Source: a virus | IMG/VR virus record: IMGVR_UViG_3300009183_000103 | Span: 1 to 60,596 of that record | Strand: one strand, 5' to 3' | DNA: 60,596 nt | Shown: piece after piece, positions 3,273 through 22,907 of the stretch | Position numbering within the stretch: the first letter of the stretch is position 1 | Layout: each line of letters opens with the position of its first letter | Program-made: the position numbers and the translations under genes | Notes under the pieces: generated by a model | What the model saw: only the letters and a program-made list of their open reading frames with translations | Databases searched by the model: none | What the model was told of the DNA's origin: nothing

Positions 3273-4353
3273 ACAATATAACGATCTACGTGAAGAGATC
3301 TTAGACGTCACTGATCTAGTCTATGCCTCTGGCCAGGTGCTTGACGGTCCTAGAACTAAAATGTTTGAACAGGCTATCGCCAAGATGACTGAACGCAAGT
3401 ATGCTGTAGCAGTTGGTAGTGGCACCCAGGCTCTTATATTTGCTCTACACGCCTTAAATGATCATGTTAAATTAGACATAGACAAGTCCAATGTTTTAAT
3501 CCCTGGCCAAAGTTATGTCGCCACGGTTAATTCAGTATTAGAAGCTGGCTATGATCCTGTGTTCTGTGATGTAGATCCCATCAGTGGATTGATGGATCTT
3601 AATACTATCCCATTACATGCAAGTAAAATCAGTGCTATGATGTATGTTAATCTATTTGGCAACATACTTGACCAAGAACGTTTAATCACCTATCAAGAAA
3701 TATTTGCTGATGGCAAGATACCTGTTATTGAAGATGCCGCACAGAGCTTTGGTGCTTACTATCGCGGAGTACCCAGTGGTAAACTAGGTGACATCAGCAT
3801 CTTAAGTTTTGATCCTACTAAGAATTTAAACAACTATGGATCAGGTGGCATGGTTTTAACTGATAATCCAGACCATGCTGAAATGTTTCGCAGTTACCGT
3901 GATAATGGCAAGTCCTTAGCTCACAACGTCACCGGCACTAACAGCAAGATGTCAGAAGCAGACTGTGCGCAGATGTTGGTTAAGTTAAAATACTTTGACG
4001 ATTGGCAAAAGCGTAGAGCAGAAATTGCAGAATACTATACTACAGAATTAGATGGCTACGTAGAATTGATACCTATAGATCCAAACGTTGAACATGCATG
4101 GAGTAAATTCGTTGTACATCACCATAGTCGCAATGTATTAAATATTGACTTAGCTGATAAAGGTATTGAAACTAAAATAAATTATCCTATACCATTACAT
4201 CTGCATCCAGTGTCGTATGTTAATGCTGATGTGGGAATATTGGAAGGTGCTGAACAGTTTAGTCGCACTTGTTTGAGTTTACCCATCTATCCAGAACTAG
4301 AAGACTATGAAGTCGAATACATAGTTGATGCTATCAAACAGAGTATCTACTAG
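3232..4353 (+). CDS. DegT/DnrJ/EryC1/StrS-family PLP aminotransferase
   Basis: 373 residues, the usual length for this family, which transaminates keto-sugars on NDP carriers. PLP-site features are GSGT at 62-65, Asp168 in IEDAAQSFGAYYRG, and the Schiff-base Lys197 in SFDPTKNLNNYGSGG. All expected residues are present, so it should be active. It is translated from inside the end of the epimerase gene, so the two probably act in sequence to make an amino-sugar nucleotide. Its 3' end overlaps the converging minus-strand cassette by 20 bases and no terminator separates them. Confidence 0.92.
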   Translation: MTGIPKIPFFGVDRQYNDLREEILDVTDLVYASGQVLDGPRTKMFEQAIAKMTERKYAVAVGSGTQALIFALHALNDHVKLDIDKSNVLIPGQSYVATVNSVLEAGYDPVFCDVDPISGLMDLNTIPLHASKISAMMYVNLFGNILDQERLITYQEIFADGKIPVIEDAAQSFGAYYRGVPSGKLGDISILSFDPTKNLNNYGSGGMVLTDNPDHAEMFRSYRDNGKSLAHNVTGTNSKMSEADCAQMLVKLKYFDDWQKRRAEIAEYYTTELDGYVELIPIDPNVEHAWSKFVVHHHSRNVLNIDLADKGIETKINYPIPLHLHPVSYVNADVGILEGAEQFSRTCLSLPIYPELEDYEVEYIVDAIKQSIY

Positions 4354-5635
4354 AGTAGTATTCTCGTAACCACGCCCATTCAAAGCTCCGCATTAGCTCC
4401 GTGTAATCACCGTTGACTTTATTATAATAGTCAACAGCATCAGCAGCACCTAATAAACTAAATTCAGCATGGTCACCATCACCAACGCTTAACCAAGTGT
4501 CCATGCGATAACCGCTTTCAACGCTACCTGTTTTAACTATATCATCTTTGAGTTTTAACACTTCACGGAAAGCAGTGCGCCAAGTTAGTTCTGGTGTGGT
4601 GTTGTAATGAGCGATGGCACTTACCCGAGGAACCACTGCATGGGCACGACTTAGGGTAAAGTCTAACCCCCAATCGTCTGTTTCTAATACTAATCGTTTA
4701 TTATAAGCAATAACACCCATGTGTCCATATTCTAATCCGTTTACAGGATTACGACTGTTGAATATATAATGTTTGGGTTCTTGTAGCCAGTCTGGTTGCC
4801 ATGCCCAATCAAAGTCTTTGACTACTTCTAGTTTAGCAAACACAGTAAAGAACCAAGGTGTGCTACTTAATTCAGCAGCTGCTTTGTATGCTAGTGCCCG
4901 GCCATTGACATTTATTATTCGTTTAACTTCGCGCCCACAGGTTTGAGCAAGGTGGGTATACCAACGTTCTGCTTCGGGTTCGCCGTTGCTGATATAGATA
5001 ATATCTAATAGATCAGGGGTCAAATACTCCTGTTTTTGCTTGATAATATATGGATAATCATAGATTTGCTTGCCTAAATATGCCTGAACGTCACGTGGGG
5101 CTATACTGATACTACCCGCATCGTTAAAACTATAAAAGGCACGTTTATTCCATAATGGAGGATAAAAATCTACTGCTTCATTTACCCAAACATAAGGTGC
5201 GTCAAACTTGTATTGTTTAAGTTCTTGAGTAATATCTTCTGTGGCAGTTTCTAATACAGGCCATGGTAGTCTGGGCACACCTGGGTAATGCCAATTGACT
5301 TCTTTATACCATTCTAATAGGGCTATGTCCCATTGCTTTTTAAACTCATCTACGTTGATTAAGAACGTGTCACCAAATTTTTCGTAGCCACTATGCCAAC
5401 AGTGTAGTTGATATGCTTCCCATGGAACTGCCCGATATTCAAAATCAAAATCTGTGTAATCACAGCAACTGGCAATGACCCAGATCCAAGGTGTGCGGGC
5501 TTTGGCTATACAACGACGGATAGTATCTAGATGATTATCATAGTAACGAACTGTTTTAGCGTGTGGGAACCGTTCAGCCAATGTTTGGACATTAGCATCA
5601 TGCCCACCTAAGTCCATGATAAAAAGATCATACAT
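4334..5635 (-). CDS. Glycosyltransferase-like protein with two related halves (433 aa)
   Basis: 433 residues. The start at 5635 gives a TAATG overlap with the upstream kinase-like gene; an ATG at 5680 would add 15 residues. The C-terminal half (about 211-330: IIYISNGEPEAE, STPWFF, RNPVNGLEYGHMG) matches the 297-residue protein at 19726-20619 block by block. The N-terminal half (about 1-100: YDLFIMDLGG, ARTPWIWVIAS, DFDF) looks like a diverged second copy. In both halves the canonical DxD is absent where the homologue has DGDN. It is probably GT-A-like, perhaps sugar-binding rather than catalytic, and is the last gene of the minus-strand cassette. Confidence 0.6.
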   Translation of the reverse strand: MYDLFIMDLGGHDANVQTLAERFPHAKTVRYYDNHLDTIRRCIAKARTPWIWVIASCCDYTDFDFEYRAVPWEAYQLHCWHSGYEKFGDTFLINVDEFKKQWDIALLEWYKEVNWHYPGVPRLPWPVLETATEDITQELKQYKFDAPYVWVNEAVDFYPPLWNKRAFYSFNDAGSISIAPRDVQAYLGKQIYDYPYIIKQKQEYLTPDLLDIIYISNGEPEAERWYTHLAQTCGREVKRIINVNGRALAYKAAAELSSTPWFFTVFAKLEVVKDFDWAWQPDWLQEPKHYIFNSRNPVNGLEYGHMGVIAYNKRLVLETDDWGLDFTLSRAHAVVPRVSAIAHYNTTPELTWRTAFREVLKLKDDIVKTGSVESGYRMDTWLSVGDGDHAEFSLLGAADAVDYYNKVNGDYTELMRSFEWAWLREYYSSRYSV

Positions 5636-6069
5636 TATGGTAGCAACATATGGATTAAATCTGCCAAGGTCTCTGACCATTTGTCGCTGGCAAATTCATC
5701 TATCCTTATATCATATTCCTCTTCTGTAGGTTTTTGGAAAATAGCGTTAGTATCTTTGTATTCGCTTCTCCTAACTGTATCCATCCAAATAACCATATCC
5801 GCATCAAACACTTCACGTAGTTCACGTGTAGGACAAACGAAATCACAGATCATTATAAATCCAGCTTCAACTCCACGATCAGCGATAGCACGCATTCGTA
5901 CTGCTTGACGGCGGCGACCTTCTGAACTAAAGTCCCAATCATTGGTTTCTTTACGTAGATCATCAGCATTGGTCCACTCAGTATGATGATTCTTTAATAA
6001 TTCATCAAATAACTTTTGTGCTAGTGTAGTTTTTCCGCTACCCGGCAGTCCCATTATTAATATTTTCAT
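5635..6069 (-). CDS. APS-kinase-like P-loop kinase (CysC family)
   Basis: 144 residues. The P-loop GLPGSGKTT is at 7-15, followed by NADDLRKETNDWDFSSEGRR, FVCPTRELREVFDADMVIWM and YKDTNAIFQKP, which follow the order of adenylylsulfate kinase motifs (DGDxxR, SPxRxxR, DTNAxF). It is shorter than CysC (about 200 aa) because the C-terminal part is reduced. Family members phosphorylate APS to PAPS or related nucleotides. A phage version next to carbamoyl- and glycosyl-transferases may activate a decorating group, which is inference. It overlaps both neighbours. Confidence 0.75.
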   Translation of the reverse strand: MKILIMGLPGSGKTTLAQKLFDELLKNHHTEWTNADDLRKETNDWDFSSEGRRRQAVRMRAIADRGVEAGFIMICDFVCPTRELREVFDADMVIWMDTVRRSEYKDTNAIFQKPTEEEYDIRIDEFASDKWSETLADLIHMLLP

Positions 6070-6793
6070 AATTTTTATATTCTCGGTAAAAATCTTCCAT
6101 TACATCTCGATGCCACCATCCGCAGAAATGTTCATTATCTCGAGCTTTTAGATATGCTCCGGGATCGTGATCTTTTAAGGCTTGCTCCATGTCAATAGAC
6201 AATAGTTTAAAACTATATACTTTTTTTAATAATTCAACAATCGTTTTGTTTTTCATTTGATTATTGTAGATATCATTGTCTTCAAAATATAGTCTATATT
6301 CGGATTCATTCCACGGACCATTAAATTGAGTGCCGGTTTTATTTTGTCCATGATGATAGGTTTCAAATCTATACACACTAGGCCACAAAATTGCAACAAT
6401 TTTTGGTTTTAATATTGGTATTAAATTTACAGCCAGTCTGGTTACGGTATCTGCGCTGGCTCCACCTAAGCCGGCATTATAAACAACGTGATCATTAAAA
6501 TACGTTGCACCTAACTGTTCGGGCCAATTATCTTCTACAGGTATCCCAACTCCAACTGTATGACTACAACCCAATGTCAATAAAATTAGATTATCGGGAT
6601 GGATTTCAAACTCTCTACTTCTAAATCCTTGACTGTTATATTTGTAGCTTAAACTATGTTCTTCCCAATGGGGCGATGGATTTTTATTGTAATTTTCTTT
6701 AGTATCAGAGTCAGCCAAACTGAACCACATTTCTTGTCCGGGAGGATACGTTCCTACGTTTAACGAACAACCTAATTCCCAATAGTTCTTCAT
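6038..6793 (-). CDS. SGNH/GDSL-like hydrolase or acyltransferase
   Basis: 251 residues. Block I is LLTLGCSHTVGVG with the likely nucleophile Ser77, and the Gly-containing block II is YNAGLGGASADT. The end carries DNEHFCGWWH, which gives a D-x-x-H as expected for the Asp-His pair. A roughly 60-residue N-terminal extension precedes block I (PPGQEMWFSLADSD; YKYNSQGFRSREF), a form seen in SGNH proteins associated with surface glycans. Family members remove or transfer acyl groups on sugars or lipids. It starts in an ATGA overlap with the carbamoyltransferase gene and ends inside the APS-kinase-like gene. Confidence 0.75.
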   Translation of the reverse strand: MKNYWELGCSLNVGTYPPGQEMWFSLADSDTKENYNKNPSPHWEEHSLSYKYNSQGFRSREFEIHPDNLILLTLGCSHTVGVGIPVEDNWPEQLGATYFNDHVVYNAGLGGASADTVTRLAVNLIPILKPKIVAILWPSVYRFETYHHGQNKTGTQFNGPWNESEYRLYFEDNDIYNNQMKNKTIVELLKKVYSFKLLSIDMEQALKDHDPGAYLKARDNEHFCGWWHRDVMEDFYREYKNYENINNGTAG

Positions 6794-8256
6794 GACAACA
6801 CTCGAACTCCATATAACTTTTCAAAACGGTCAGCATCACTACGGTCATTGACCATGGGCTCACCACGGATATTTAGACTAGTATTTAACAGCATGGGACA
6901 ACCAGTCCACTCAAACCATGCTTCTAATAGTTGTCTTATTCCCGACCCATCAGCGGCAACAGTTTGTACACGAGATGTACGGTCAGCATGAATGATGGCA
7001 GGATAAAGATCAGGCTGCCGACAATAAGCGACTGTCTGCATATACCTGCTAGTAGGCCAACCACTAGGCATATCAAAATATTCCTTACATACCTCTTCCA
7101 AAATAACGGGTGCAAATGGCCTGAACTGTTGACGTTGTTTGATTGCATTTACTCTCTCCTTGATATCAGCACCACGTGGGTCTGCTAATAAACTACGATT
7201 GCCTAGTGCTCTAGGTCCAAATTCTGCACGGCCATTGGCGACTCCAACTATTTTATTAGTTAGTAATTCACTTATTAAATCTTTAACAGGATAGGGACCA
7301 GCTATGTCTGTACCTAGATAAGCATTCTGCCAGTTTAACTTACCGCCATAACTCAATGCCGCAGCACCTAGGCTACTACCACAATCACCAGGGTTAGGCA
7401 TGATCCAAATATTTTGAAAGTAAGCACCTATTAGGTCATTGGCTTTACAGTTTAGTGCCACTCCGCCCATGTAAACTAAGTTACCAGTCGTATCTAATTC
7501 TTCAGCACGTAGCATGATATGATGTAGGCATTGTTCTAATGTATATTGCGCACTGGCAGCTATCTCAAAGTCTGTCATACCAGGATGATATTCATCACAG
7601 CCAACATGTAGGTTTTGTTTAAATTGTAGATTATGTGCGTTAGCCAAGAAGTCGCCATACATATTTGCATCAAACTGAGCATAAGCAGCCATTCCCATTA
7701 AGATATATTCTTCATCTAAAGGTTTAAGTCCAGCACGTTTAGTCATAGCTGAATAAAATAAACCTAGACTATGTGGATACTTCTGGCTCCATAATTTTTT
7801 ATATACTGCACGGCCGTTAACGTATTCAGCTGACCAAATACTTGCTGTATCCCATTCGCCTATAGCATCAATAACAACTACTGTAGCACGATCATATGGG
7901 CTAGTTTGGAATCCTGCGGCTGCGTGACTTAAATGGTGACCATGATATTCGATGTCTGGTGGATTTTTATTTGGCCAAATTTTACGTATCTTGTCCTCAA
8001 TACTAGTATCAAACAAGTCTTTGTATTGTCCGGCATAGAGTTGACGTGTTTTCTTTAACCAAGGGCGTTCGTAATAGGCGATACGATCCGGTATGCCACA
8101 ATGTGCAAAACAATCGGCAAGAATCTCACGATTGAACTCACTGTCGTGTTTAACTTTACTATAACGTTCACTGTGCGCGGCAAACAAGATCTCACCATCA
8201 CAGATGAGACTTACGCCTGCATCATGGAAGCCGGACGATATTCCTAAGATATTCAT
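6790..8256 (-). CDS. Carbamoyltransferase, NodU/CmcH/TobZ family
   Basis: 488 residues, slightly shorter than the usual 550-600. The N-terminus MNILGISSGFHDAGVSLI, the metal-binding H107-H-x-x-H111 motif, VVVIDAIGEWDTAS (about 126-139), GRAEFGPRALGNRSLLADPR (about 340-360) and the near-terminal LNTSLNIRGEP are all family hallmarks. The enzyme makes carbamoyl-adenylate from carbamoyl phosphate and ATP and transfers the carbamoyl group to a hydroxyl, typically on a sugar or antibiotic. The C-terminus ends soon after the LNTSLN block, a modest truncation. It overlaps the SGNH genes on both sides (35 and 4 bases). Confidence 0.93.
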   Translation of the reverse strand: MNILGISSGFHDAGVSLICDGEILFAAHSERYSKVKHDSEFNREILADCFAHCGIPDRIAYYERPWLKKTRQLYAGQYKDLFDTSIEDKIRKIWPNKNPPDIEYHGHHLSHAAAGFQTSPYDRATVVVIDAIGEWDTASIWSAEYVNGRAVYKKLWSQKYPHSLGLFYSAMTKRAGLKPLDEEYILMGMAAYAQFDANMYGDFLANAHNLQFKQNLHVGCDEYHPGMTDFEIAASAQYTLEQCLHHIMLRAEELDTTGNLVYMGGVALNCKANDLIGAYFQNIWIMPNPGDCGSSLGAAALSYGGKLNWQNAYLGTDIAGPYPVKDLISELLTNKIVGVANGRAEFGPRALGNRSLLADPRGADIKERVNAIKQRQQFRPFAPVILEEVCKEYFDMPSGWPTSRYMQTVAYCRQPDLYPAIIHADRTSRVQTVAADGSGIRQLLEAWFEWTGCPMLLNTSLNIRGEPMVNDRSDADRFEKLYGVRVLS

Positions 8257-8983
8257 ATATTATTTTTTCTGCTTCAATGTGTGCTTCTTCTAATGGATGT
8301 GTTGTTCCTATAGGAAAACCTTTTTCTTTTGCCCACTCATAAAATCCTAAATTAGTAGGAAACCATAACCATCTTTCACGATCAAATTGATTTAATAATG
8401 TAGTTAATGTGTTATCATTTTTAAAATGGTCGACATTGGTCAGACCATGGTCAACACTAGTAAACAAATAAGGTATATTTTTTAACTGTAAATATTGCTG
8501 TAACATAATAATTTCGCAAAGACTATTGTAAAGTTCCCAATATTCAAATGTACCCACGTAGTGATAAAATACTTTAGCAAACTGCCTAATTCCTTTTTCT
8601 TTTTCTTCTTTTAACTTACTAACATGCCAATCAAATACAACAGGATTGTCCACTGCAAATTCTTTTTTGATATCGTTAACGTTGTCTACAATAGACCACG
8701 CACTTATTTGCTCCCACGTTTCATCAAATTTAAATTCGTATCTACTCAAAAAACTCCAAGTAACTAGCACTAATCCAATTTCTTCTTTAGTTTGTTCGCA
8801 GACCGTCATTACAGTCCTACGTATAGCGTTATTACTATATCCCGGTTGTGCCGCACAATGGTAAGACATTCCCAAATGATTGGCCAATAATGCTGCATAA
8901 CTAGATTTACTATATTCAGTATAGCCATCAGCTAGCTCACTACCATAGGTAAAACTATCGCCGCCGGCGATTAACTTACCCAA
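8222..8983 (-). CDS. SGNH hydrolase-like protein, TTG start
   Basis: 253 residues from a TTG at 8983, preceded by GGAGAA about seven bases upstream and overlapping the previous stop by 13 bases. An ATG at 9082 would add 33 residues that are absent from the three sister proteins. Block I GGDSFTYGSEL puts Ser10 as nucleophile. The C-terminal block THPLEEAHIEAEKI has ExxH where classical SGNH enzymes have DxxH. With the genes at 8971 and 9691 it forms a paralogous series sharing GDSxxxGxEL and PLE-x-x-H. It probably acts as an esterase or O-acyltransferase on glycans. Confidence 0.72.
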   Translation of the reverse strand: MGKLIAGGDSFTYGSELADGYTEYSKSSYAALLANHLGMSYHCAAQPGYSNNAIRRTVMTVCEQTKEEIGLVLVTWSFLSRYEFKFDETWEQISAWSIVDNVNDIKKEFAVDNPVVFDWHVSKLKEEKEKGIRQFAKVFYHYVGTFEYWELYNSLCEIIMLQQYLQLKNIPYLFTSVDHGLTNVDHFKNDNTLTTLLNQFDRERWLWFPTNLGFYEWAKEKGFPIGTTHPLEEAHIEAEKIIYEYLRNIVRLP

Positions 8984-9615
8984 GATAATTTCTCCATATG
9001 CCCATAAATTTTTTCTGCTACCTTTATATGTCCTTCTTCTAAAAAATGCCCCCGATCTCCTACCGGACATTGATAAGCCCATTCCATCATAGTATCAACA
9101 GGCCAACCTACATAAAATCTACCATCAATTTGATCTAATAAATCTTTGTTAACATTAGCGGTGCGGTTATTGACCTGATGATTACCAAAACTATCTAGCA
9201 TCAAATAAGGTTTATTATTTGCTTTAAAAAAGTTTTGTATAAGAATGATGTTTAGCAAGTATTGTCTATATAGGTAATCATCGTTGTGATGACGACTAAA
9301 ATATTCTATTACTTCCCAGCGCCATGGACTGTATTGTTTATGTGGCAATGTTCCACCGCCTGGCCATAGGTCATAAAATCCATTTTCATCTGCCATTTCG
9401 ATACGTGCAAAGTGACTCCATGCTATAATGGCCATATCGTAGTTGTTAATTTGCTCTACGCAATGTCTGACCATGCGTGTATTACCACTACCCGGTTTAG
9501 CTAGGTTAATGACTTCATATCCTATTTTTTTACCCAAAACAAAAGGCCAAGCGTTGTTTAAATCGCTTAGTTCTTCCCCATAGGTAAAGCTATCCCCAAC
9601 CGATAATAAACGCAT
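8971..9615 (-). CDS. SGNH hydrolase-like protein
   Basis: 214 residues. Block I LLSVGDSFTYGEEL has Ser9, block II is PGSGNTRMVRH, and the C-terminal block is RGHFLEEGHIKVAEKI with ExxH. It is closest to the neighbours on either side, so tandem duplication is likely. Its ATG at 9615 is formed by the TAATG overlap with the micro-gene upstream. There is no signal peptide, so it should act in the cytoplasm, for instance on activated or lipid-linked glycan intermediates (inference). Confidence 0.75.
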   Translation of the reverse strand: MRLLSVGDSFTYGEELSDLNNAWPFVLGKKIGYEVINLAKPGSGNTRMVRHCVEQINNYDMAIIAWSHFARIEMADENGFYDLWPGGGTLPHKQYSPWRWEVIEYFSRHHNDDYLYRQYLLNIILIQNFFKANNKPYLMLDSFGNHQVNNRTANVNKDLLDQIDGRFYVGWPVDTMMEWAYQCPVGDRGHFLEEGHIKVAEKIYGHMEKLSWVS

Positions 9616-9716
9616 TATTTGTAGATAAAAGGATCTCTTTTACGTAGTTCTTTTAATTTCTTGCGGTAAGCTATTTCTAGTTTGATTCGATTATATAGAT
9701 TTCTTAACCAACTCAT
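9615..9716 (-). CDS. Micro-protein, 33 aa, basic, ending in DPFIYK
   Basis: 33 residues, from ATG at 9716 to TAA at 9615-9617. The sequence is an amphipathic, strongly basic helix (MSWLRNLYNRIKLEIAY, then KKLKELRKR) with a fixed-looking end DPFIYK. It overlaps the upstream SGNH gene by 26 bases and shares one base with the downstream one, so it keeps the fully overlapped gene pattern. From memory, tiny proteins ending in KDPFIY occur in other marine T4-like phages with no known function. It could be a peptide substrate for the radical SAM proteins, but that is speculation. Confidence 0.65.
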   Translation of the reverse strand: MSWLRNLYNRIKLEIAYRKKLKELRKRDPFIYK

Positions 9717-10245
9717 TGAATTTCTCCTTAATTAATTCTGCGGCTTCTACATGTGCATCTTCCAAAGGATGTCCATCAGTGCCTATACTATACTTATTTT
9801 CCACAGCCCATTGATAAAATCCTCTTGGTCGCTGGGTATCATATGATTCTGTACCAGCCGGAAATAAGTACCAATGGTCCCAGTTAGTTTTAGGATCTAA
9901 TAGATCTATTAGACAATTATCCACACAGGTAAACAGATAAGGGACCTGATGATATTCACAATATTGTTGGAATTCTAATATAACCTTAGGACTAGTATAA
10001 ATTGTATCTCTAGTAGGCCATGTCCAACAAACAACTACTGCTTTTGAGCCACCTTTATGTAACTCTTCTCTAGCACGCCGAGCTATTTCATAATTGCTAA
10101 TGCCAGGATAAGCAACACAGATATAGTTATTACCTGATAACAATGCAGGAAAGGTGTTGCGGCTATACCCATCGATACCCCCATGTGGGCTATCCTGTAG
10201 CTCACTACCCCAAATCATACTATCACCCGCGGCTACTATAGTCAT
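9691..10245 (-). CDS. SGNH hydrolase-like protein (short form)
   Basis: 184 residues, the shortest of the SGNH group. Block I VAAGDSMIWGSEL places Ser9, block II is YPGISNYEIARR, and the C-terminal block GHPLEDAHVEAAELI has both LED and the terminal His (ExxH). It lacks about 60 residues in the middle compared with the copy at 8222-8983. It overlaps the unknown 366-residue gene upstream by 23 bases. Catalytic residues look intact, and the substrate is unknown. Confidence 0.73.
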   Translation of the reverse strand: MTIVAAGDSMIWGSELQDSPHGGIDGYSRNTFPALLSGNNYICVAYPGISNYEIARRAREELHKGGSKAVVVCWTWPTRDTIYTSPKVILEFQQYCEYHQVPYLFTCVDNCLIDLLDPKTNWDHWYLFPAGTESYDTQRPRGFYQWAVENKYSIGTDGHPLEDAHVEAAELIKEKFNELVKKSI

Positions 10246-14998: not shown

Positions 14999-16335
14999 TA
15001 TTTCTTAGCCCATTTATCATAGCAGAAGTTACGCAACTCGACATATTCAGGAAATACATCCTCAAACTTTTCCTGACGAGATACATCTAACTTATCATTT
15101 ACTGAGAAAAATTCATGCAATAGCCAATCTTTATTATCTGAATCCATATAACTTAAGATACTTTCATATCCAACAATAGCACGAGTTAGCGGATCATGGG
15201 GTCTCAACCATTCGATGTGTGCTAGGATTTTTTCGCGAACCTGTTGTTTATATATTTCTGGTAGCACATCTATGCGTTCTCTATCAGGACCTTGAAGTAT
15301 ATTAATATTCCAATCTTGAGCTTTGATTAATCCGCGTTCGACCCAATCACGATGAAAATCCATAACGTGCAGGACATTGTAAATACTAACTGTCGAGCTA
15401 ACATAAAAATCTACATCAGGGCAGATCTCTAGCATCTTTTCACGATTACGAACAATCTGATCCCAATCGGTTCCTTTACGTATGTATTCTGCACGAGCTC
15501 CCATAGCATCTAAACTGGCTCCGATACTAATATTTTTAAATAATCGCCAATAGTCTAAAACATTTTCATCCTTAAGAGTCAGTCGACTGAAGTTTGTATT
15601 ATATATTAATCTAACATCAAACATTTTACGTGCAGCTAATTCTTTTAATATACGATAATGCTCCTCCATTATCAATGGTTCGCCACCAGCAAAGTAAATT
15701 TGTTCTAAGTATGGGATATGTTCTTGCATTTGATTCCACATGTCATCTTTATCTTTGCCTGCATACATAAACTGAGGATGATCGCGTGGGCCAAACAATT
15801 CCACTTCTTCATTGTACCAACTGCTGCTAAACCATCCACCACAGGTGCGACAACTCATATTACATAAATTTGTAAAACGTATATCATAATATCTTATTTT
15901 AAAATCATCAAATTGACCGTCGGCAGATGTTTGATCTACAAGATTGATGTGATGCCCAAAGTTTTTGTTGCTATCATTTCGCATGCTGACAAATCCGTGT
16001 TGTTCACGTTCGTAACATTTAGTGCATTCTCGACATTCTACTTCATTTATCATGTTAATACGCATTTGTTTATATTCGGGGCTATTCCAAACTTCTCGCA
16101 TATTGTTATTGTGTAGATTTCCTAGCGGGTAATGACTGTCACTTAAACAACAAGGATATGCTTGGCCATTAGGAAAGGCATGCAGATGAATCCATGGCAA
16201 TATACAAAATACTTTACTTTCAGTTAGTCGATGCATCTGCTCTTGATTGAGAGTACCCTTTTCAACATAGATAGGTTGATTATCTGTATAATTATGATTT
16301 TTATAATATTCTTCTTTTTGTTTATCTCTACTCAT
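14998..16335 (-). CDS. Radical SAM protein with N-terminal cysteine cluster
   Basis: 445 residues. The core motif CNMSCRTC has Cys158, 162 and 165, followed by GGWFSSSWYNEE; GGEP is in IYFAGGEPLIMEEHY. Pre-core cysteines are C44 (CILPW), C62-C63 and C101/C104xxC107. The C-terminus ends with RQEKFEDVFPEY. It is the closest relative of the radical SAM protein inserted between gp47 and gp46: both have HH-[IL]-[SN]-L before the core, AGGEPLIMEEHY and FEDVFPEY. It starts inside an ATGA overlap. Confidence 0.9.
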   Translation of the reverse strand: MSRDKQKEEYYKNHNYTDNQPIYVEKGTLNQEQMHRLTESKVFCILPWIHLHAFPNGQAYPCCLSDSHYPLGNLHNNNMREVWNSPEYKQMRINMINEVECRECTKCYEREQHGFVSMRNDSNKNFGHHINLVDQTSADGQFDDFKIRYYDIRFTNLCNMSCRTCGGWFSSSWYNEEVELFGPRDHPQFMYAGKDKDDMWNQMQEHIPYLEQIYFAGGEPLIMEEHYRILKELAARKMFDVRLIYNTNFSRLTLKDENVLDYWRLFKNISIGASLDAMGARAEYIRKGTDWDQIVRNREKMLEICPDVDFYVSSTVSIYNVLHVMDFHRDWVERGLIKAQDWNINILQGPDRERIDVLPEIYKQQVREKILAHIEWLRPHDPLTRAIVGYESILSYMDSDNKDWLLHEFFSVNDKLDVSRQEKFEDVFPEYVELRNFCYDKWAKK

Positions 16336-16997
16336 AGTTTATATCGTTCCAATATTTGTTTTACAACTATCTCATGTTCTTGTCTGTTAGGGTGTCTACA
16401 TTCACTTACCCACGGGCTAATAGTATCTATTCTAATATCAACTCCGCTGATTATATCTGACCAACTGGTTTCAATTAATTTTATATTATTTAATTGGCAA
16501 TATGCTCTGACTACATCTATTAATAGACCCCTTTTCTTTCTATATTCAGCATCATCAAATTTATAAGTCAATAACATTTGATATAAGTTAAATACCGTAT
16601 CAATATTATCTTCTGAGTCTGCACAAATACAAGGTTCAGATAATGTCCATGTTCCGACATTTTTGAAATGTGCAAAGGGGTTGGTTAAATCTGTTGTAGT
16701 AGCACACCAATTTGGTATAAATTGCCACGTGCGACCTTCATTGGTCCACACTTCCCTGACAGGGCTAGTCCATCCTACTATGACAGCAGTAATATTTTTA
16801 TATTTAGGTATTTCCTCTATCATTTTATAAAAAATGTTTTCATTGCTATTTCCAGGAAAAGCAAAGTTAACACATTCAACGCCTAATTGTTTTGCTATTA
16901 AATTAGGATAACTTAATTCAAGGTTTTTAATGGTAGCTTGATCACTTGCTAATCCCACACCGTGGGTGACACTACACCCAAACGCCAATATTGTCAT
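16332..16997 (-). CDS. SGNH hydrolase-like protein nested between radical SAM genes
   Basis: 221 residues. Block I LAFGCSVTHGVG gives Ser9, with GCS instead of GDS, as in the SGNH protein at 6038-6793. Block II is FPGNSNENIFY, and the C-terminal HPNRQEHEIVV holds a possible catalytic His without a clear acidic partner at the usual spacing. It belongs to a different subgroup from the three-gene series at 8222-10245. ATGA overlaps on both sides tie it to two radical SAM genes. Cytoplasmic, no signal peptide. Confidence 0.72.
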   Translation of the reverse strand: MTILAFGCSVTHGVGLASDQATIKNLELSYPNLIAKQLGVECVNFAFPGNSNENIFYKMIEEIPKYKNITAVIVGWTSPVREVWTNEGRTWQFIPNWCATTTDLTNPFAHFKNVGTWTLSEPCICADSEDNIDTVFNLYQMLLTYKFDDAEYRKKRGLLIDVVRAYCQLNNIKLIETSWSDIISGVDIRIDTISPWVSECRHPNRQEHEIVVKQILERYKL

Positions 16998-18358
16998 AAT
17001 GTATTATACCATTCGGCTAGTTGTGGGAATGTATGTCTAAAGTCTTTACCACGGCGTTGATCATATTGTTCATAAAAGTTCTTAAAGTCACGTTGCAGGA
17101 TACTGTTTGTCATAGCACCGCTGTGTGGGCTGACAACTTCTTTCAAATAACTAACTAATCTACCAATTTGGTTAATTTCAAACTCGTGTAATACATCTAC
17201 ACTAAGATCACCAAGCGGAATTAATTGTCTAATACATTCTTCACGCACCTCTAAAGGTAATATCAATGGGCTTTGAAAACTAGGAAAGCGTAGAATATTT
17301 AGACTAAAGTTAATCGCATCTTTGCCATATTTCTTCTTAAGTTCAACAATACTCCACAGGAACTCTGGTAGACTTATCAAGCATAGTGCGTTTATGGTAC
17401 ACATGACATGTAGGCCACGCAGTTTACCACTAGCCAATAAGTAAGAAAGATTGCTAGTCCATTGATCCCAATCCAGGCCATCACGAATATATATTGCGTG
17501 TTGACCAATGCTTTCGTTGCTTGTATACAGATCCAATTTAATACCTTCTGTGGCATCTAATAACCTTTCTAATTTATCTTGTTCAAATCCTAGGTTGCTG
17601 TTTATAGCAAGCCGTGTTTTACTCTCGCCTCGGTGATCTTTGAACCATTCGATGAGCCGCCAGGTGTATCCTGACATAAGTGGCTCTCCTCCTGTGATCC
17701 GTAGTTCCTTAAGCGTTTTGTGTAGGTCTGATTCCCACCATTTGAAGAAGGCTTCAACGTATGGATTAACGTCAGTGATAGTATAAAGTTGGCTACTGTC
17801 ATGAGTGTGAGTAAAATGATTGCGACCGTCGGAAACCAGATTGGTATATGGTCCATTACGATGAATGTCACGAACCCAAGTAGTGCTGAAAGCAGGATTG
17901 CAATAGCTGCAAGCAAACTGACAAGTGCGATCGAAAGCAATTTCCAAGGTTTGTAGGTTAACGTCTTGTTCTGGTGGAGTATTGAAAGCTTCATCTAGGT
18001 CTTTATCCTCATAAATTACTGTTTTATAAACACGGTCACTGATAATTTCATCAGACGCATCTTCTCTGTCTGCCATATCCTCAATCTTCCAGCAGTATTC
18101 ACACCCGCTTGGCCTTAGGCCATCTTGCATCAATGCACGATCATTTTTCTTTTCACGTGTATTGTGTAATGCTCGAGGATTTGCTATTACCTGTTCTACA
18201 CTTACCTGATGTGGTAATGGGTGGTGACAACTGGTAGTCTGCCCACTGCCTAACCATATGGTAGCGTTATACCATTTGGCACCGCAGAAGCTTGTTGACT
18301 TAATGTCAATCACTCTGCGTTTGTATCCTAAATCGGTTTCGTTATGGAGTTTCGGCAT
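16994..18358 (-). CDS. Radical SAM protein, CQFACSYC subgroup
   Basis: 454 residues. Cys146, 150 and 153 form the SAM cluster (CQFACSYC, then NPAFSTTW), and GGEP occurs in LRITGGEPLMSG. Pre-core cysteines are C25 (FCGAKW), C44 in SCHHPLPH (a His replaces the second Cys of the CC pair seen in other copies) and C86xxC89. The C-terminus is YDQRRGKDFRHTFPQLAEW. With the next gene upstream it forms a distinct pair sharing CxAKW, SCxHP and YDQRRG, presumably a duplication with divided roles. Confidence 0.9.
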   Translation of the reverse strand: MPKLHNETDLGYKRRVIDIKSTSFCGAKWYNATIWLGSGQTTSCHHPLPHQVSVEQVIANPRALHNTREKKNDRALMQDGLRPSGCEYCWKIEDMADREDASDEIISDRVYKTVIYEDKDLDEAFNTPPEQDVNLQTLEIAFDRTCQFACSYCNPAFSTTWVRDIHRNGPYTNLVSDGRNHFTHTHDSSQLYTITDVNPYVEAFFKWWESDLHKTLKELRITGGEPLMSGYTWRLIEWFKDHRGESKTRLAINSNLGFEQDKLERLLDATEGIKLDLYTSNESIGQHAIYIRDGLDWDQWTSNLSYLLASGKLRGLHVMCTINALCLISLPEFLWSIVELKKKYGKDAINFSLNILRFPSFQSPLILPLEVREECIRQLIPLGDLSVDVLHEFEINQIGRLVSYLKEVVSPHSGAMTNSILQRDFKNFYEQYDQRRGKDFRHTFPQLAEWYNTL

Positions 18359-19733
18359 GCCACTTACACTCCTGCCAAAACTCTTTCATTTGCGGGAAGG
18401 TTTGTTCAAAACTTAAACCTCGACGTTGATCATATTCATGGAAGAAACGATAAAAGTCAGCACGTGTGTCATGTAGATACTTCTCACTTAACTTTTTGCC
18501 TTTTTTCATCCAATCAATATCTCGATGTAAACGTTGGATTTCATAATCTTTAAATCCATCATAGCGACCGCTGCCTTCTTCTAAGCGATGTAATTCCATC
18601 CATTTAGCAACATTTTCTAAAATGCGTACATAACTTTCTGGAAGTATCTGTAGACTTTGCCAACTTGGCGTTCTCAACACAGGAGTATCAAACCAAACAC
18701 GTTGATAGGTAGTACTGTATAACTTACGCAACTCTAAGATGTGTTCTAATAGACGTTGTAGTCCCAAGATACTAAGATTATTCATTGTGATGATATAGGT
18801 CAAGCTATTACGATTAGGCACTTCAGTTAGGTAACGATGTACATAGGCTTGATTGCGTTGGAATTCTAATCCATCGCGGATATATTCAGCATGTTCAGCG
18901 ATGCCTGTATCTAAACTTACATACTGCATGAAGTGTTCTATCTTAGTACCTGTACATAAGTCTTTAACTTTAGCAATATATTTTACAAACAAGTCTTCTG
19001 GGACGCTAAAATTACTTGTAACGTCAACGTGTAAATCGCTCTTAGGTGCAGCCAGAATATAATCAAATACACGATGCGTATTCTTATCCATAAGAGGTTC
19101 GCCACCCGTCATACGGAAGTGTTTAAGACTACCATATAGCTCAGGCCACCAACGCCAGAATGCTTCTACATAGGGATTGTTCTCACGCACAGGAATAGGT
19201 TGGCGGCGGCCTTTGAAATGCATGGGATCGTTGTGTGGACTCTTTGTAGGATATGCTCCCCAACGGTCAATATCCTTGCCCCATTCAGTTGAAAACTGCG
19301 GGCTACAATAACTACATGCTAGATTACACCCATGACTAAAGTTTACTTCAACATAACTTGGAGTAACATCTGCGTCCCATGGTAGATCTTTGATTTCATC
19401 GTAATGACTAGCGGCCCAAGGCTCGCCACTACGATAATGGCGATCACTTAAATGTCCAGCATCTTCCATATTCCAGCAATAGTTACATTCTTTAGGACGC
19501 TCGCTGTTGAGCATCTTTTTACGTTGTTCTTTCTTATATGCTGTGTTATGTAAGGCACTAGGGTGAAACTCCAATGGGTGTACATCAATCTCATGCAATG
19601 GAGGATGGTAACAACTGTTATTAAGTCCTGTTGGTAAGTGTAGGCTTACCTGTTGCCATTTGGCTAGACATAATGCAGGACCTAACTTGTCTTTCATCTC
19701 CTCTGCCGCTGTCATAAATGTACTTTTACTCAC
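18342..19733 (-). CDS. Radical SAM protein, CNLACSYC subgroup
   Basis: 463 residues. The SAM cluster CNLACSYC has Cys136, 140 and 143, followed by SPQFSTEWGKD; GGEP is in FRMTGGEPLMDKNTH. Pre-core residues are C22 (CLAKW), C41 in NSCYHPPLH and C83xxC86. The end DQRRGLSFEQTFPQMKEFW matches the downstream paralogue at 16994-18358. It overlaps the glycosyltransferase-like gene by 8 bases, placing radical chemistry and sugar transfer in one transcript. Confidence 0.9.
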   Translation of the reverse strand: MSKSTFMTAAEEMKDKLGPALCLAKWQQVSLHLPTGLNNSCYHPPLHEIDVHPLEFHPSALHNTAYKKEQRKKMLNSERPKECNYCWNMEDAGHLSDRHYRSGEPWAASHYDEIKDLPWDADVTPSYVEVNFSHGCNLACSYCSPQFSTEWGKDIDRWGAYPTKSPHNDPMHFKGRRQPIPVRENNPYVEAFWRWWPELYGSLKHFRMTGGEPLMDKNTHRVFDYILAAPKSDLHVDVTSNFSVPEDLFVKYIAKVKDLCTGTKIEHFMQYVSLDTGIAEHAEYIRDGLEFQRNQAYVHRYLTEVPNRNSLTYIITMNNLSILGLQRLLEHILELRKLYSTTYQRVWFDTPVLRTPSWQSLQILPESYVRILENVAKWMELHRLEEGSGRYDGFKDYEIQRLHRDIDWMKKGKKLSEKYLHDTRADFYRFFHEYDQRRGLSFEQTFPQMKEFWQECKWHAETP

Positions 19734-20619
19734 GTTCCATTACTCCTTGATTTTTAAACACACTCTTATAGTGATGTTTAAAGAATTTACTTTCTTCTGC
19801 GTCCATGTCTACGATAGGTAGACTTAATTTTTGCCTTAAAATATTTCCAATACTGGTACAATTATCTGGTTCGTGGTCTTTAAATTCTTTCCATAGTATG
19901 GCTAACTTATCAAAGTCTTGTACATCACGATAATCCCAATTATTCAGCATGGTCATCCAGGTGCCTAACCTGGCTCCATATATACTCCAAAAGCCATTTT
20001 CTACATCTGCGCCCACTGATTGCCAAATACACAAATGATCGTAGTTGCGATTATGTACACGAACTTCAAAGTCTACCAGACCTGGCTTACGACCACGATC
20101 CAAACACATCTTAACTCCTTCACGAAATCCGGCGCGCCATGCTTGGAATGGTGTTGCATTAGGATATGTGGTACTATAGCAATCGTGCATGGCCCAATAA
20201 TCCGGATAAAAACAAAATTCTACATCATTGGCTTCTGTACCATCTGTGTTCTCATGTGTCTTCATAGCATAGACGAATTCTTTAGTCCAGCAACTTAGTC
20301 CACCGTTGCCATACATCAATCCATTTATTGTATTACGTGCCTTCCATCGGAATACTTTATTGCTGGAATCTTTATCTAACTTTAACTGTAGATTAAAAAA
20401 TTCTGCGTCAGGAATATTATCACCGTCAATCAATAAGAAACGGTCTGTGGTGCTAGCATCTGCTGCGGCTTTATGTGCGGCATCACTGCCTTTAATGCCA
20501 TCTACACGTTGAGCCCAGGGCACCATGTTTTGTATCTGTATCCAAGTTTCTTCTTTCCTAGGTTCATCATAACTCAGATATATACAATCTAAGTCTGCTA
20601 TATCAATTAATTGTGTCAT
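19726..20619 (-). CDS. Glycosyltransferase-like protein with DGDN motif
   Basis: 297 residues. The start DLDCIYLSYDEP, a helix HKAAADASTTDRFLLIDGDN with a DxD-type motif at D65-G-D67, and RNTINGLMYGNGGLSCW are consistent with a GT-A fold that uses a metal-bound nucleotide sugar. The later FCFYPDYWAMHDC and AFREGVKM blocks are also conserved in the C-terminal half of the protein at 4334-5635. Family members I recall from T4-like aquatic phages are annotated only as glycosyltransferase-like. Donor and acceptor are unknown. Confidence 0.65.
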   Translation of the reverse strand: MTQLIDIADLDCIYLSYDEPRKEETWIQIQNMVPWAQRVDGIKGSDAAHKAAADASTTDRFLLIDGDNIPDAEFFNLQLKLDKDSSNKVFRWKARNTINGLMYGNGGLSCWTKEFVYAMKTHENTDGTEANDVEFCFYPDYWAMHDCYSTTYPNATPFQAWRAGFREGVKMCLDRGRKPGLVDFEVRVHNRNYDHLCIWQSVGADVENGFWSIYGARLGTWMTMLNNWDYRDVQDFDKLAILWKEFKDHEPDNCTSIGNILRQKLSLPIVDMDAEESKFFKHHYKSVFKNQGVMERE

Positions 20620-20959
20620 AATATTCTACATCCAAATATGTTTCATTTGATTCCAATACCAAACCTGCATGATGTTTAACTACAGCATATCCATGATTAC
20701 TTTTCTTTAATTTTACACGAATTCCCAGGTCAATTGCAATCTTTTCAAGACATTTTCTTTGTACGTTTACCTTATATTGGTAATAATGATCATATAGATT
20801 CCTGTCAACAACCAAATACTGTGTATCTTTTGGGTGTTGTTGCATAGTACACATAGTAATCCTACCTGTATCGTCATAGTGTATACGATATTCGAATGGT
20901 TCTGGTGTCACTGCACCAAAACTCGCAAGAGCTTGATTAAATTCTTCTTCCCAACTCAT
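20603..20959 (-). CDS. Conserved phage protein of unknown function (118 aa)
   Basis: 118 residues. The start at 20959 (MSWEEEFNQALASFG) is preferred over ATG 20974, because GGGGAA sits at the right distance upstream. The pattern EYRIHYDDTGRITMCTMQQH, YLVVDRNLYDHYY and NHGYAVVKHHAGLVLE resembles, from memory, a small protein that recurs near fibre and glycosylation genes of marine T4-like phages. It has no catalytic motif, is probably beta-rich and is cytoplasmic. It overlaps both neighbours. Confidence 0.75.
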   Translation of the reverse strand: MSWEEEFNQALASFGAVTPEPFEYRIHYDDTGRITMCTMQQHPKDTQYLVVDRNLYDHYYQYKVNVQRKCLEKIAIDLGIRVKLKKSNHGYAVVKHHAGLVLESNETYLDVEYYDTIN

Positions 20960-21800
20960 CTTTATATTCCCCAATCAACTCATCTGTTATCCAAGATTTT
21001 TCTTGATAATGCAAAGGATGATATTGATTAATATTGTTAATGCGCACCATCGGCAAATCTGTTTCACACATTACAGAGTCAACCCACTGTGATTGCTGAC
21101 TAAATCCGTTTATTAAAGGCTTCATATGCACAAAATTAATAAAATCTACTCCAGGTAGTGTGCATTTTTCTATTCCTAAAATTTTAGCAGCCAGAGCGTA
21201 GACTACATCTGTAGTAGCATCATTATCTCTACAATTAATCAATACGTGATCCCTAATGTGATCCCAATGTTTATATATTAATCTAGCATGATTAAAAAAG
21301 TTAGCCGATTCTTGACTATAGCGAAAATACATAAGTCCATTGTATACGTCAGGCAATTCATTATCTTCAAACACTTGCCTATATGCACGACTTGGACTTA
21401 GTTGCTGTAGATAATTTCTACAGCCTTGACTTAAAACTATATTACGTAATCTGAATGTATTCCACCAATGCTCTATGCTTCGAGTAAAAATTAAATCACT
21501 TTCTAGTTTAATAGTTTCCTTAAATGGTGTTAGATAAAACGCCTGCCATTCATTGGATAGTTTCCATTCACTGTGTTTAGCGTGATCTTCATCTAAAACT
21601 ATCACATAGTCAAATACTTTGCGATGCTGATCTTGTATTTGTTCATTTGTGTTAGCATCAACTATCACAGCGTATTCACTGCCAGGCATGGTTAATTTAA
21701 TGCTCATGGCTTGAACATAAGCTAATCGTAGATAATCAACAGTACTGTTCTGAGCAATAGTTAAAAATCCCTGGTGACTTTGATGTGCTAGCTTACGCAT
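20937..21800 (-). CDS. Glycosyltransferase-like protein (GT-A type)
   Basis: 287 residues. The pattern resembles GT8-type or related transferases: an N-terminal strand then DYLRLAYVQAMSIKL, a strand EYAVIVDAN, and FKETIKLESDLIF (about 93-105) with an acidic S-D pair at the place of DxD. YNGLMYFRY follows, and HMKPLINGFS near the end. It is a sister of the next gene upstream (same order: DY-x-x-LA, then P-[YF]-x-E-T, then SD). It is probably a cytoplasmic sugar transferase; the acceptor is unknown. Confidence 0.62.
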   Translation of the reverse strand: MRKLAHQSHQGFLTIAQNSTVDYLRLAYVQAMSIKLTMPGSEYAVIVDANTNEQIQDQHRKVFDYVIVLDEDHAKHSEWKLSNEWQAFYLTPFKETIKLESDLIFTRSIEHWWNTFRLRNIVLSQGCRNYLQQLSPSRAYRQVFEDNELPDVYNGLMYFRYSQESANFFNHARLIYKHWDHIRDHVLINCRDNDATTDVVYALAAKILGIEKCTLPGVDFINFVHMKPLINGFSQQSQWVDSVMCETDLPMVRINNINQYHPLHYQEKSWITDELIGEYKDELGRRI

Positions 21801-22564
21801 ATAGAATTAATAAAATCTTTGAAATTGTCACTCAGTAAATAATCTTTGTCCATTATATGTATGTTTTGTCTAGGTATTATGTAGGCTCGATCCTTTTCTT
21901 TGATTGTTATCATTCCGTGCTTAACTGCCATCGATTTAACTACTTCAGTAAATGTCAGCATAGGCCAAGGGATACCTCGATCTAGTGTTTGATCATACCC
22001 ATTTAATATGTTATCAGCGATAGTGAACGCATAGTCATTTCTAAAACTAGAATAATTTATTTGATAAAGGTTGCAATAGTAATTATAATTTCGTTGTATG
22101 CGACCGACTAGTTCAAATAACATTTTGGTCTTATTTGTTTTCCTAAATAATACTGCGGTAGCCCATTGATATGGCAATCCATACGGTCCCATGCGATCGG
22201 GCCAGCTACCAGATTGGCTATAGTTATGGGTCATGATACGATAATCAAATTCTTGCTCAAACAATTTTAATAGATTCTGATCTAACATAAGATAATCACT
22301 GTCAATTAACAGTGTTTCATCATACGGGCTCAATTTATATGCACAGTAACGATCTCCATTACGCCAAGTTGTCCCTTTACCAGGTTTAGTGTTGATTAAG
22401 GTATTTGTGATATCATTATCTGATATGATAGTAACAGGTAATCCTAGCGTATGTGCAATTAATCGTGCTGAACGTCTGGCTAGTTTAACGTAATCAGTTT
22501 GTTCAGTATTAAACGCAAACAGTAGAACTCCTCTAGACTTTTCTTGTGTGTTTAAGATTGTCAT
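21788..22564 (-). CDS. Glycosyltransferase-like protein with DSD motif
   Basis: 258 residues. The layout is GVLLFAFNTEQTDYVKLARR, LPVTIISDND, then YDETLLIDSDYL with a clear DxD motif at D88-S-D90, and YQWATAVLFRK. The DxD strand after a long N-terminal Rossmann-like half fits GT-A transferases of the GT8/stationary nucleotide-sugar type. It is paralogous to the downstream gene. The start lies 32 bases inside the first gene of the cassette. Active-site motifs look more intact than in its sister. Confidence 0.65.
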   Translation of the reverse strand: MTILNTQEKSRGVLLFAFNTEQTDYVKLARRSARLIAHTLGLPVTIISDNDITNTLINTKPGKGTTWRNGDRYCAYKLSPYDETLLIDSDYLMLDQNLLKLFEQEFDYRIMTHNYSQSGSWPDRMGPYGLPYQWATAVLFRKTNKTKMLFELVGRIQRNYNYYCNLYQINYSSFRNDYAFTIADNILNGYDQTLDRGIPWPMLTFTEVVKSMAVKHGMITIKEKDRAYIIPRQNIHIMDKDYLLSDNFKDFINSICVS

Positions 22565-22847
22565 GTTGGATATGCCAAGAATTCATAACCATCTGATAAT
22601 GTTGCTTAGACAGTGTTAAAAATTCTGCTCGATTGATTTTAATTGGATTTTGATATGTATCTTCTAGGAACAGTTCATCTGTGTCCCAGCTATTTAGAAA
22701 TGCGATAAGTTCTGGCGAAACCTTAAATAAACCTCCATTATAAGGAACCTGTAGATCTGTTTGGATTTTTTCTCTCAAGATACGTTTGTTTACTTGGTAG
22801 TCAGTGGCTAATCGAATTTCATTCGTAATTTGTTCTAGATCGCTCAT
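22533..22847 (-). CDS. Conserved phage protein, first gene of the late accessory cassette (104 aa)
   Basis: 104 residues starting at ATG 22847. An ATG at 22946 would add 33 residues, but these would be encoded by the terminator. GATAAATA lies exactly five bases upstream of ATG 22847, with no SD. The blocks EIRLATDYQVNKRILREKIQ, VPYNGGLFKVSPELIAFL and LEDTYQNPIKINRAEFL resemble a small protein I recall from other marine T4-like phages, function unknown. It is helical and cytoplasmic. Its position makes it the lead gene of the 21-gene overlapping run. Confidence 0.78.
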   Translation of the reverse strand: MSDLEQITNEIRLATDYQVNKRILREKIQTDLQVPYNGGLFKVSPELIAFLNSWDTDELFLEDTYQNPIKINRAEFLTLSKQHYQMVMNSWHIQHDNLKHTRKV

Positions 22848-22852
22848 GCAGC

Positions 22853-22860
22853 TATTTATC
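22853..22860 (-). promoter_or_regulatory. T4-late-type promoter motif GATAAATA for the accessory cassette
   Basis: On the minus strand the 8-mer GATAAATA is followed by five bases (GCTGC) and then the ATG at 22847. T4 late promoters carry TATAAATA about 13 to 6 bases before the start of transcription, so +1 would be the A of ATG. It is the only such motif I found for the whole 4334-22847 gene run. Confidence 0.6.
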
Positions 22861-22877: not shown

Positions 22878-22907
22878 AAAAAAAAAGCACTCTAGAGGAG
22901 TGCTTTT
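22878..22907 (-). terminator. Rho-independent terminator between virion genes and accessory cassette
   Basis: A perfect 6-bp stem (GCACTC / GAGTGC, 22887-22892 with 22898-22903), extended by A/T pairs, has a five-base loop. On the minus strand it is followed by nine T residues (22886 down to 22878). It lies just after the stop of the fibre gene at 22922-23875 and just before the cassette's late promoter, so it separates the two transcription units. Confidence 0.88.

Follow-up and report, generated by a model that had tools for sequence, protein, structure and literature searches.

A strictly ordered cassette of overlapping genes in T4-like aquatic phages links a conserved 33-residue peptide to a carbamoyltransferase

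Introduction

What does a phage build with a run of overlapping genes that encodes six radical S-adenosylmethionine (SAM) enzymes, five SGNH-like proteins, four glycosyltransferase-like proteins, one carbamoyltransferase and one small kinase? This cassette lies on the minus strand of the stretch analyzed here (the window; 60,596 bases, positions 1 to 60,596 of IMG/VR record IMGVR_UViG_3300009183_000103), which carries T4-like genes for baseplate wedge and hub proteins and gp46/gp47-like nucleases. The general kind of locus, in which tail fibers stand with glycan genes and many radical SAM genes, is already known. Host recognition clusters of pelagimyophages combine tail fibers, glycosyltransferases and radical SAM genes (PMC7029224), and a T4-like virus from the environment is on record whose genome holds iron-sulfur (Fe-S) carrier genes and 12 genes for radical SAM enzymes (PMC5332604). 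Here we show that the cassette has a core whose order is fixed in related viruses, and that its smallest gene encodes a peptide linked to the carbamoyltransferase in phages and in bacteria.

Results

Twenty-one overlapping genes

A first-pass annotation of the window, made from the sequence alone, had counted 21 genes with 20 overlapping junctions, and this was borne out: on the minus strand, from 22847 down to 4334, all 20 junctions overlap, by 1 to 35 bases. The count uses starts at 22847 (g01), 20959 (g04), 8983 (g17) and 5635 (g21), and a few overlaps become longer if the most upstream starts are chosen. It is completed by a 33-codon open reading frame (ORF) at 9615-9716 (g15), whose ATG is preceded by AAGGAG; the usual ORF size cut-offs skip this frame and leave a 75-base gap. 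The features of the cassette and its head are listed below.

22883-22907, minus strand (present on both strands): intrinsic terminator-like hairpin, separating the cassette from the last tail gene
22853-22860, minus strand: late-type promoter motif GATAAATA, 5 bases before the g01 ATG
22533-22847, minus strand: g01, small conserved protein, function unassigned
21788-22564, minus strand: g02, putative glycosyltransferase, GT-A/GT8-like; D88-x-D90 invariant in 14 homologues
20937-21800, minus strand: g03, putative glycosyltransferase, GT8-like; E-x-D invariant in the alignment
20603-20959, minus strand: g04, small conserved protein, function unassigned
19726-20619, minus strand: g05, putative GT-A-like protein, related to g21
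18342-19733, minus strand: g06, N-terminal-twitch radical SAM enzyme; NF033640 296 bits (cut-off 170); CxxxCxxC
16994-18358, minus strand: g07, N-terminal-twitch radical SAM enzyme
16332-16997, minus strand: g08, SGNH/GDSL-like, variable slot, few relatives; Pfam Lipase_GDSL just below cut-off
14998-16335, minus strand: g09, N-terminal-twitch radical SAM enzyme; NF033640 403 bits
13787-14998, minus strand: g10, N-terminal-twitch radical SAM enzyme; NF033640 339 bits
12595-13794, minus strand: g11, N-terminal-twitch radical SAM enzyme, 236 bits; variable slot, few relatives
11289-12629, minus strand: g12, core N-terminal-twitch radical SAM enzyme; 71-90% identity among near relatives
10223-11323, minus strand: g13, core protein; confident AlphaFold model (pLDDT 88, pTM 0.85)
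9691-10245, minus strand: g14, SGNH-like, variable slot
9615-9716, minus strand: g15 (PEP), 33-residue peptide MSWLRNLYNRIKLEIAYRKKLKELRKRDPFIYK
8971-9615, minus strand: g16, SGNH-like, DUF6071 (PF19547), 30.7 bits, above the 27-bit cut-off
8222-8983, minus strand: g17, SGNH-like, DUF6071-related, 22.0 bits (below cut-off); start taken from relatives
6790-8256, minus strand: g18, NodU/TobZ/NovN-type carbamoyltransferase, short form, 488 residues
6038-6793, minus strand: g19, SGNH-like, variable slot
5635-6069, minus strand: g20, small P-loop kinase, APS-kinase/AAA_33-like
4334-5635, minus strand: g21, putative tandem glycosyltransferase-like protein, g05-related, from sequence reading and profile matches

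At the head of the cassette, the hairpin (22907 to 22883) is followed by GATAAATA, so that the claimed terminator does lie just upstream of the late motif. All eight copies of [TG]ATAAATA in the window lie on the minus strand, and within the cassette the motif is found at the head only. The claim of a sole late motif holds for this form; a looser core, CTAAATA, is present inside the cassette at about chance frequency. Among relatives (see below), the late-type motif stands at 12 of 79 cassette heads versus 7 of 614 internal starts, and a terminator-like hairpin at 40 of the 79 heads. The description "headed by one late promoter" thus suits the window and a close relative but only a minority of relatives, and the single-promoter claim is weaker there than in the window. 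Translational coupling is strongly supported by the gene anatomy and would be expected in vivo.

The core order is fixed in related viruses

Relatives were gathered by scanning IMG/VR with the carbamoyltransferase, one radical SAM enzyme, the peptide and g05, followed by profile searches of their ORFs; for g05 and the peptide, counts rest on the matches listed and are therefore at least the numbers given. Loci picked in this way, by similarity to cassette genes, show how the cassette is built where it is present rather than how common it is. We retained the 154 loci in which seven or more core families were present, on about 139 contigs (hand count), some of them near-identical. Scattered, unlinked genes in relatives, which the first-pass annotation had named as evidence against a single pathway, were looked for and not seen: among the matches listed, on contigs of up to 354 kb, a 15-gene core was strictly collinear in 148 of the 154 viral loci (6705 of 6715 gene pairs). 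The core runs g01-g02-g03-g04-g05-g06-g07-g09-g10-g12-g13-(SGNH)-PEP-(SGNH)-g18-g20-g21. Furthermore, 553 of 578 junctions overlap in the cassettes of relatives versus 5 of 186 among the genes that immediately precede the cassette in these loci, both sets being scored with most-upstream starts. Overlap in the cassette is therefore far beyond chance.

Between the core genes are slots, mainly at g05-g06, g06-g07, g10-g12 and g18-g21; in the window, g08, g11, g14 and g19 are slot genes. Among 118 slot proteins tallied were extra radical SAM enzymes, aminotransferases, AMP-binding enzymes, methyltransferases, a Trp halogenase, a Stf0 sulfotransferase and a hexapeptide transferase, and most of the 118 had no Pfam match. 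Seven of 11 jumbo-relative records (G011-G013, G015-G018) each hold two A-type Fe-S carrier genes, whose products perhaps load the many radical SAM enzymes.

Another IMG/VR contig, L019, encodes proteins 100% identical to those of the window over its available part. The cassette was not found in GenBank phages: neither a near-identity DNA search nor searches with g05, g13 and g03 gave a match. Vibrio phages K566 and K567 were rejected as carriers, since they hold distant radical SAM genes only and no cassette. The closest trace in GenBank phages is a single-cell marine virus fragment whose carbamoyltransferase is 50% identical and is preceded upstream by a variant peptide ending DPYIYEE. Radical SAM matches in metagenome-assembled genomes (MAGs) of Pelagibacter, Betaproteobacteria and Verrucomicrobia (contigs L188, L189, L191) were rejected as cellular genes; because these contigs contain the phage cassette, we read them as phage DNA binned with its hosts. 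In a Bacteriovoracaceae MAG (L190:8696-12551), three cassette-like twitch radical SAM genes, one of them 45% identical to g12, lie near ordinary cellular genes, and a Bdellovibrionia contig holds a pair of twitch radical SAM genes adjoining two GT2 genes.

Enzyme families of the cassette

All six radical SAM proteins match NF033640 (N_Twi_rSAM) at 236-403 bits, above the curated cut-off of 170 bits, and all six carry the CxxxCxxC cluster motif. They probably perform different reactions, because their pairwise identity is only 20-32%. Both domains of g18, Carbam_trans_N and Carbam_trans_C, score above the Pfam cut-off (124 and 161 bits), and its closest PDB matches are NovN (the novobiocin carbamoyltransferase), GdmN and TobZ, which are O-carbamoyltransferases of sugars and small molecules. 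With these enzymes and NodU it shares both Pfam domains and the canonical FGPRALGNR motif, but it is shorter (about 490 residues) and is linked to DUF6071 and to the peptide. Of the label "APS-kinase-like" (adenosine 5'-phosphosulfate kinase) given to g20 in the first-pass annotation, the P-loop kinase part stands: g20 passes the Pfam APS_kinase cut-off. A full APS kinase was rejected, as g20 falls below all NCBIfam equivalog cut-offs (38.3 bits versus 138.7 for the APS-kinase equivalog).

As for the label "glycosyltransferase-like", the D-x-D of g02 and the E-x-D of g03 are invariant and typical of GT-A enzymes, but the fold support is weak: g03 matches glycogenin with an E value of 0.05, and the AlphaFold model of g05 (pLDDT 78.6) has top fold matches mostly to GT-A enzymes and nucleotidyltransferases, at E 0.02 or worse and none significant. 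No Pfam match was found for g02, profile searches of the PDB with g12, g05, g13 and g02 returned nothing meaningful, and the g13 model had no significant fold match in the PDB. We therefore treat g02, g03, g05 and g21 as putative glycosyltransferases.

The DPFIY peptide is linked to the carbamoyltransferase

The small g15 gene, which the first-pass annotation had counted while missing its importance, encodes the most conserved product of the cassette. The peptide ends ...KRDPFIYK, and its mean identity among 11 aligned relatives is 87%. Across 101 distinct coding sequences, the third codon position is freer than the first two, which are constrained, so that g15 encodes a translated protein under selection. 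By eye, its N-terminal half is variable and amphipathic or membrane-like.

A tblastn search of phages with the peptide gave no match, although the low-complexity filter may mask it, and DNA pattern searches for KRDPFIYK, which are blind to context, were used instead. In all 80 loci sampled with this pattern, the motif was the C terminus of a small ORF. After removal of seven loci with too little downstream DNA, a carbamoyltransferase gene lay within 1.5 kb downstream in 63 of 73, often with a 4-base overlap, whereas radical SAM genes were present in only 19 of the 80 (some loci being short). The steady partner of the peptide is therefore the carbamoyltransferase.

This linkage bears on whether the cassette makes a ribosomally synthesized and post-translationally modified peptide (RiPP), in which case the six radical SAM/twitch enzymes would act on the 33-residue product and the remaining genes would decorate it. 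Twitch/SPASM enzymes often mature peptides, and a short conserved peptide with a nearly invariant DPFIY does lie within a six-radical-SAM operon. We nevertheless consider a RiPP quite unlikely, given the partner just identified, the occurrence of the peptide as the tail of a DUF6071 protein in two bacteria (described below) and the fact that no peptidase or exporter was recognized. A radical SAM RiPP of the pyrroloquinoline quinone (PQQ) or mycofactocin kind was downgraded because constant linkage of peptide and maturase was not found.

Outside the cassette, the peptide has other neighbors. In many of the remaining sampled loci, the peptide follows a DNA primase gene (28 of the 39 upstream proteins examined) and precedes a carbamoyltransferase gene, after which comes a helicase-like gene (helicase read from sequence). 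The order primase, DPFIY peptide, carbamoyltransferase, helicase-like gene is seen in aquatic-phage loci L196, L208, L226, L233, L234 and L264; among these primase loci, some carbamoyltransferases have only 316-318 residues and no C-terminal motif. L240:1143-8964 offers a sugar context outside the cassette: a gene for a GatZ/KbaZ-like aldolase precedes peptide and carbamoyltransferase, and a g21-like protein of 1454 residues comes next. Five further loci (L201, L235, L263, L265, L267) encode peptides ending DPFIYK (+0-2 residues) with no carbamoyltransferase nearby; one adjoins a transketolase-like gene, and another lies near epimerase, DegT and B12-radical SAM genes.

A DUF6071-peptide-carbamoyltransferase unit in bacteria

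The nearest plasmid carbamoyltransferases, from the soil bacteria Mesorhizobium huakuii and Streptomyces goshikiensis, both adjoin a DUF6071 gene (the g16 family). Directly upstream of the two are peptides, missing from the gene tables, that end RRRDPFIYE and RRTDPFMYK. In Mesorhizobium, the carbamoyltransferase is followed by a small P-loop protein with a weak AAA_33 match, and the order DUF6071-peptide-carbamoyltransferase-kinase matches that of the phage.

We predicted the same companions for other cellular short-form carbamoyltransferases. Among 399 Pseudomonadota genomes there were three more of these, a fourth match being the phage contig in the Pelagibacter MAG, and all three had the predicted companions, with the motif diverged in one. 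In one, a free peptide ending RKRDPYIYK lies between a DUF6071-like gene and the carbamoyltransferase. In the remaining two, the carbamoyltransferase comes after DUF6071, and the C terminus of the DUF6071 protein itself reads ...ADPFIYP or ...VKPFIYP. That the peptide is the C-terminal tail of a DUF6071 protein in two bacteria argues that it acts jointly with the DUF6071 protein and the carbamoyltransferase. The short form is rare in Alphaproteobacteria, and a search of 291 genomes from the phylum to which a Bdellovibrionia genome belongs gave none. No earlier description of the triad, of DUF6071 or of DPFIY was found in the literature searched.

Both units with the tail fused to DUF6071 adjoin a polyketide synthase (its domains were scanned in one of them), with a methyltransferase nearby in one. 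These closest bacterial units suggest a small-molecule, natural-product-like pathway, whose product would be a diffusible or membrane-bound metabolite instead of a virion or envelope glycan. The Trp halogenase, AMP-binding and Stf0 sulfotransferase genes of the variable slots and the antibiotic-tailoring enzymes among the PDB relatives of g18 point the same way. Such a pathway is a serious though less likely alternative for the phage, in whose cassette no scaffold synthase (polyketide synthase or nonribosomal peptide synthetase) was recognized, and which has tail fibers in front of the cassette and nucleoside diphosphate (NDP)-sugar genes at its end.

What, then, would the peptide do? Most likely it would dock the carbamoyltransferase to the SGNH protein or the membrane, or receive the carbamoyl group. 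HypF and HypE offer a parallel, in which a carbamoyltransferase works with a partner bearing a conserved C-terminal tail; the DPFIY tail differs in having no cysteine, and carbamoyl transfer is suggested here by analogy. As a tentative proposal, which may well prove wrong, the peptide, free or as a DUF6071 tail, could serve a short-form O-carbamoyltransferase as carrier, acceptor or obligatory docking tail, with the hydroxyl of its near-invariant Tyr, or the tail itself, receiving or positioning the carbamoyl group.

Genes around the cassette

A block of tail and virion genes (tail-fiber and virion structural PHROGs) lies directly upstream of the cassette. Other features of the window are as follows.

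2-322, plus strand: thymidylate synthase, C-terminal part, canonical deoxyuridine monophosphate (dUMP) type, near the cassette end
2307-3272, plus strand: NDP-sugar epimerase, convergent with the cassette
3232-4353, plus strand: DegT-type sugar aminotransferase, convergent at the cassette end
31935-45497, minus strand: 4520-residue ORF in the tail region, more than one fifth of the window
55682-56563: gp55-like late sigma factor
57627-59153, plus strand: seventh radical SAM gene (PHROG 14086), not part of the cassette, flanked by the gp47-like and gp46-like nuclease genes

An opposite-strand DegT gene stands at the cassette end in 49, and an NDP-sugar epimerase gene in 45, of the 79 relatives that reach g21; both are lower bounds, many loci ending soon after g21. 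The strict synteny resembles that of structural genes, tail fibers are adjacent, and g01, g04 and g13 have no assigned function, so that the core late genes might mainly be factors for virion assembly or tail-fiber maturation, their enzymes modifying tail-fiber protein and not sugar. With sugar genes at the cassette end and small-molecule or sugar precedents for the enzyme families, this is very unlikely.

The thymidylate synthase raises the matter of DNA hypermodification, in which the carbamoyltransferase, kinase, glycosyltransferase-like and radical SAM enzymes would act on hydroxymethylated bases. The family is present in 7 of 11 large relatives, near the cassette in at least some; a phage carbamoyltransferase of the same superfamily as g18 acts on 5-hydroxymethylcytosine (5hmC; PMC8670742); and in other phages the peptide-carbamoyltransferase pair sits between primase and helicase-like genes. 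However, the thymidylate synthase of the window reads ...GVPFNIASY, with the Asn of the dUMP type and not the Asp177 seen in the enzymes of modified phages, and those of relatives carry the canonical PPCH motif. Likewise, g18 is only 25% identical to the 5hmC enzyme and reads RALGNR (canonical) where that enzyme has RALCNT. The positions of TobZ W408, G421 and R423, mapped onto g18 by motif spacing and not from structure, are V, G and R, of which G and R are canonical and not DNA-type; all relatives with a readable motif keep G-x-R where the DNA enzyme has C-x-T. Cytosine hypermodification, the most serious of the named rivals given the known 5hmC enzyme, is thus disfavored by two residue tests, and with the cassette placed late, behind tail genes, DNA hypermodification in general is unlikely.

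Discussion

We slightly favor the view that the cassette is a late biosynthetic operon of a T4-like aquatic phage lineage, whose coupled genes would build and decorate a sugar-based structure for the virion and its tail fibers or for the host envelope. One late transcript would start behind the tail-fiber genes, and the overlapping ORFs would couple translation, keeping the enzymes of one pathway in step. The NDP-aminosugar genes and the glycosyltransferase-like g02, g03, g05 and g21 would supply the scaffold. The scaffold would then be tailored: the radical SAM enzymes could oxidize or rearrange it, g18 could O-carbamoylate it, g20 could phosphorylate it, and the SGNH proteins could add or remove acyl groups. 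The product would probably end up on tail fibers or virion, or in the host envelope. Within this operon, DUF6071 SGNH protein, DPFIY peptide, carbamoyltransferase and P-loop kinase would form an inner unit, seen in bacteria as well, in which the peptide would be devoted to working with the carbamoyltransferase and the SGNH protein.

The glycan-decorating pathway named in the first-pass annotation fits the gene families, the tail-fiber neighborhood, the convergent NDP-sugar genes and the sugar clusters around related phage carbamoyltransferases; we infer its product, acceptor, chemistry and order of steps from these. In cultured Pelagibacter phages, carbamoyltransferase genes lie among UDP-sugar, ArnB-like aminotransferase, methyltransferase and MoaA-like genes. 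The twitch radical SAM pair beside two GT2 genes on the Bdellovibrionia contig also speaks for a glycan. Several observations weigh against a glycan. The four putative glycosyltransferases match no glycosyltransferase family at curated cut-offs, and no flippase, polymerase or sugar-nucleotide pathway was recognized within the cassette. The variable-slot content and the bacterial polyketide synthase neighborhood fit a small molecule as well as a glycan, and the primase/helicase-like loci with the peptide-carbamoyltransferase pair have no glycan context.

The literature searched contains no described system with this fixed core or the DPFIY peptide. The pelagimyophage cluster (PMC7029224) has in common with the cassette a T4-like aquatic phage and tail fibers with glycan-related genes in the structural region, the glycan side being partly inferred here, but it is a hypervariable, non-syntenic island. 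That cluster is located between VrlC and gp14, neither of which was identified in the window. The virus of PMC5332604 likewise joins many radical SAM genes and Fe-S carrier genes in one T4-like virus; the available part of that report discusses them as Fe-S metabolism and includes no operon, peptide or carbamoyltransferase unit. In Pelagibacter phage Mosig (MT647606), MoaA-like radical SAM, aminotransferase and methyltransferase genes accompany a carbamoyltransferase gene, but the gene families and their order differ, and the DPFIY peptide was not found there.

Glycan clusters of marine T4-like phages have been described as variable islands, whereas here a 15-gene core keeps its order across contigs of up to 354 kb. 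The fixed order therefore suggests a specific and important role for the lineage, and the radical SAM chemistry of the cassette has no assigned substrate. The gene for the peptide, which is easy to overlook, is ultra-conserved in aquatic phages. If our proposal for it is correct, peptide-directed carbamoyl transfer would be common to phages, Alphaproteobacteria and actinomycetes. Since the peptide-enzyme linkage is present in phages, rhizobia and Streptomyces, its function could be tested in laboratory bacteria without phage culture.

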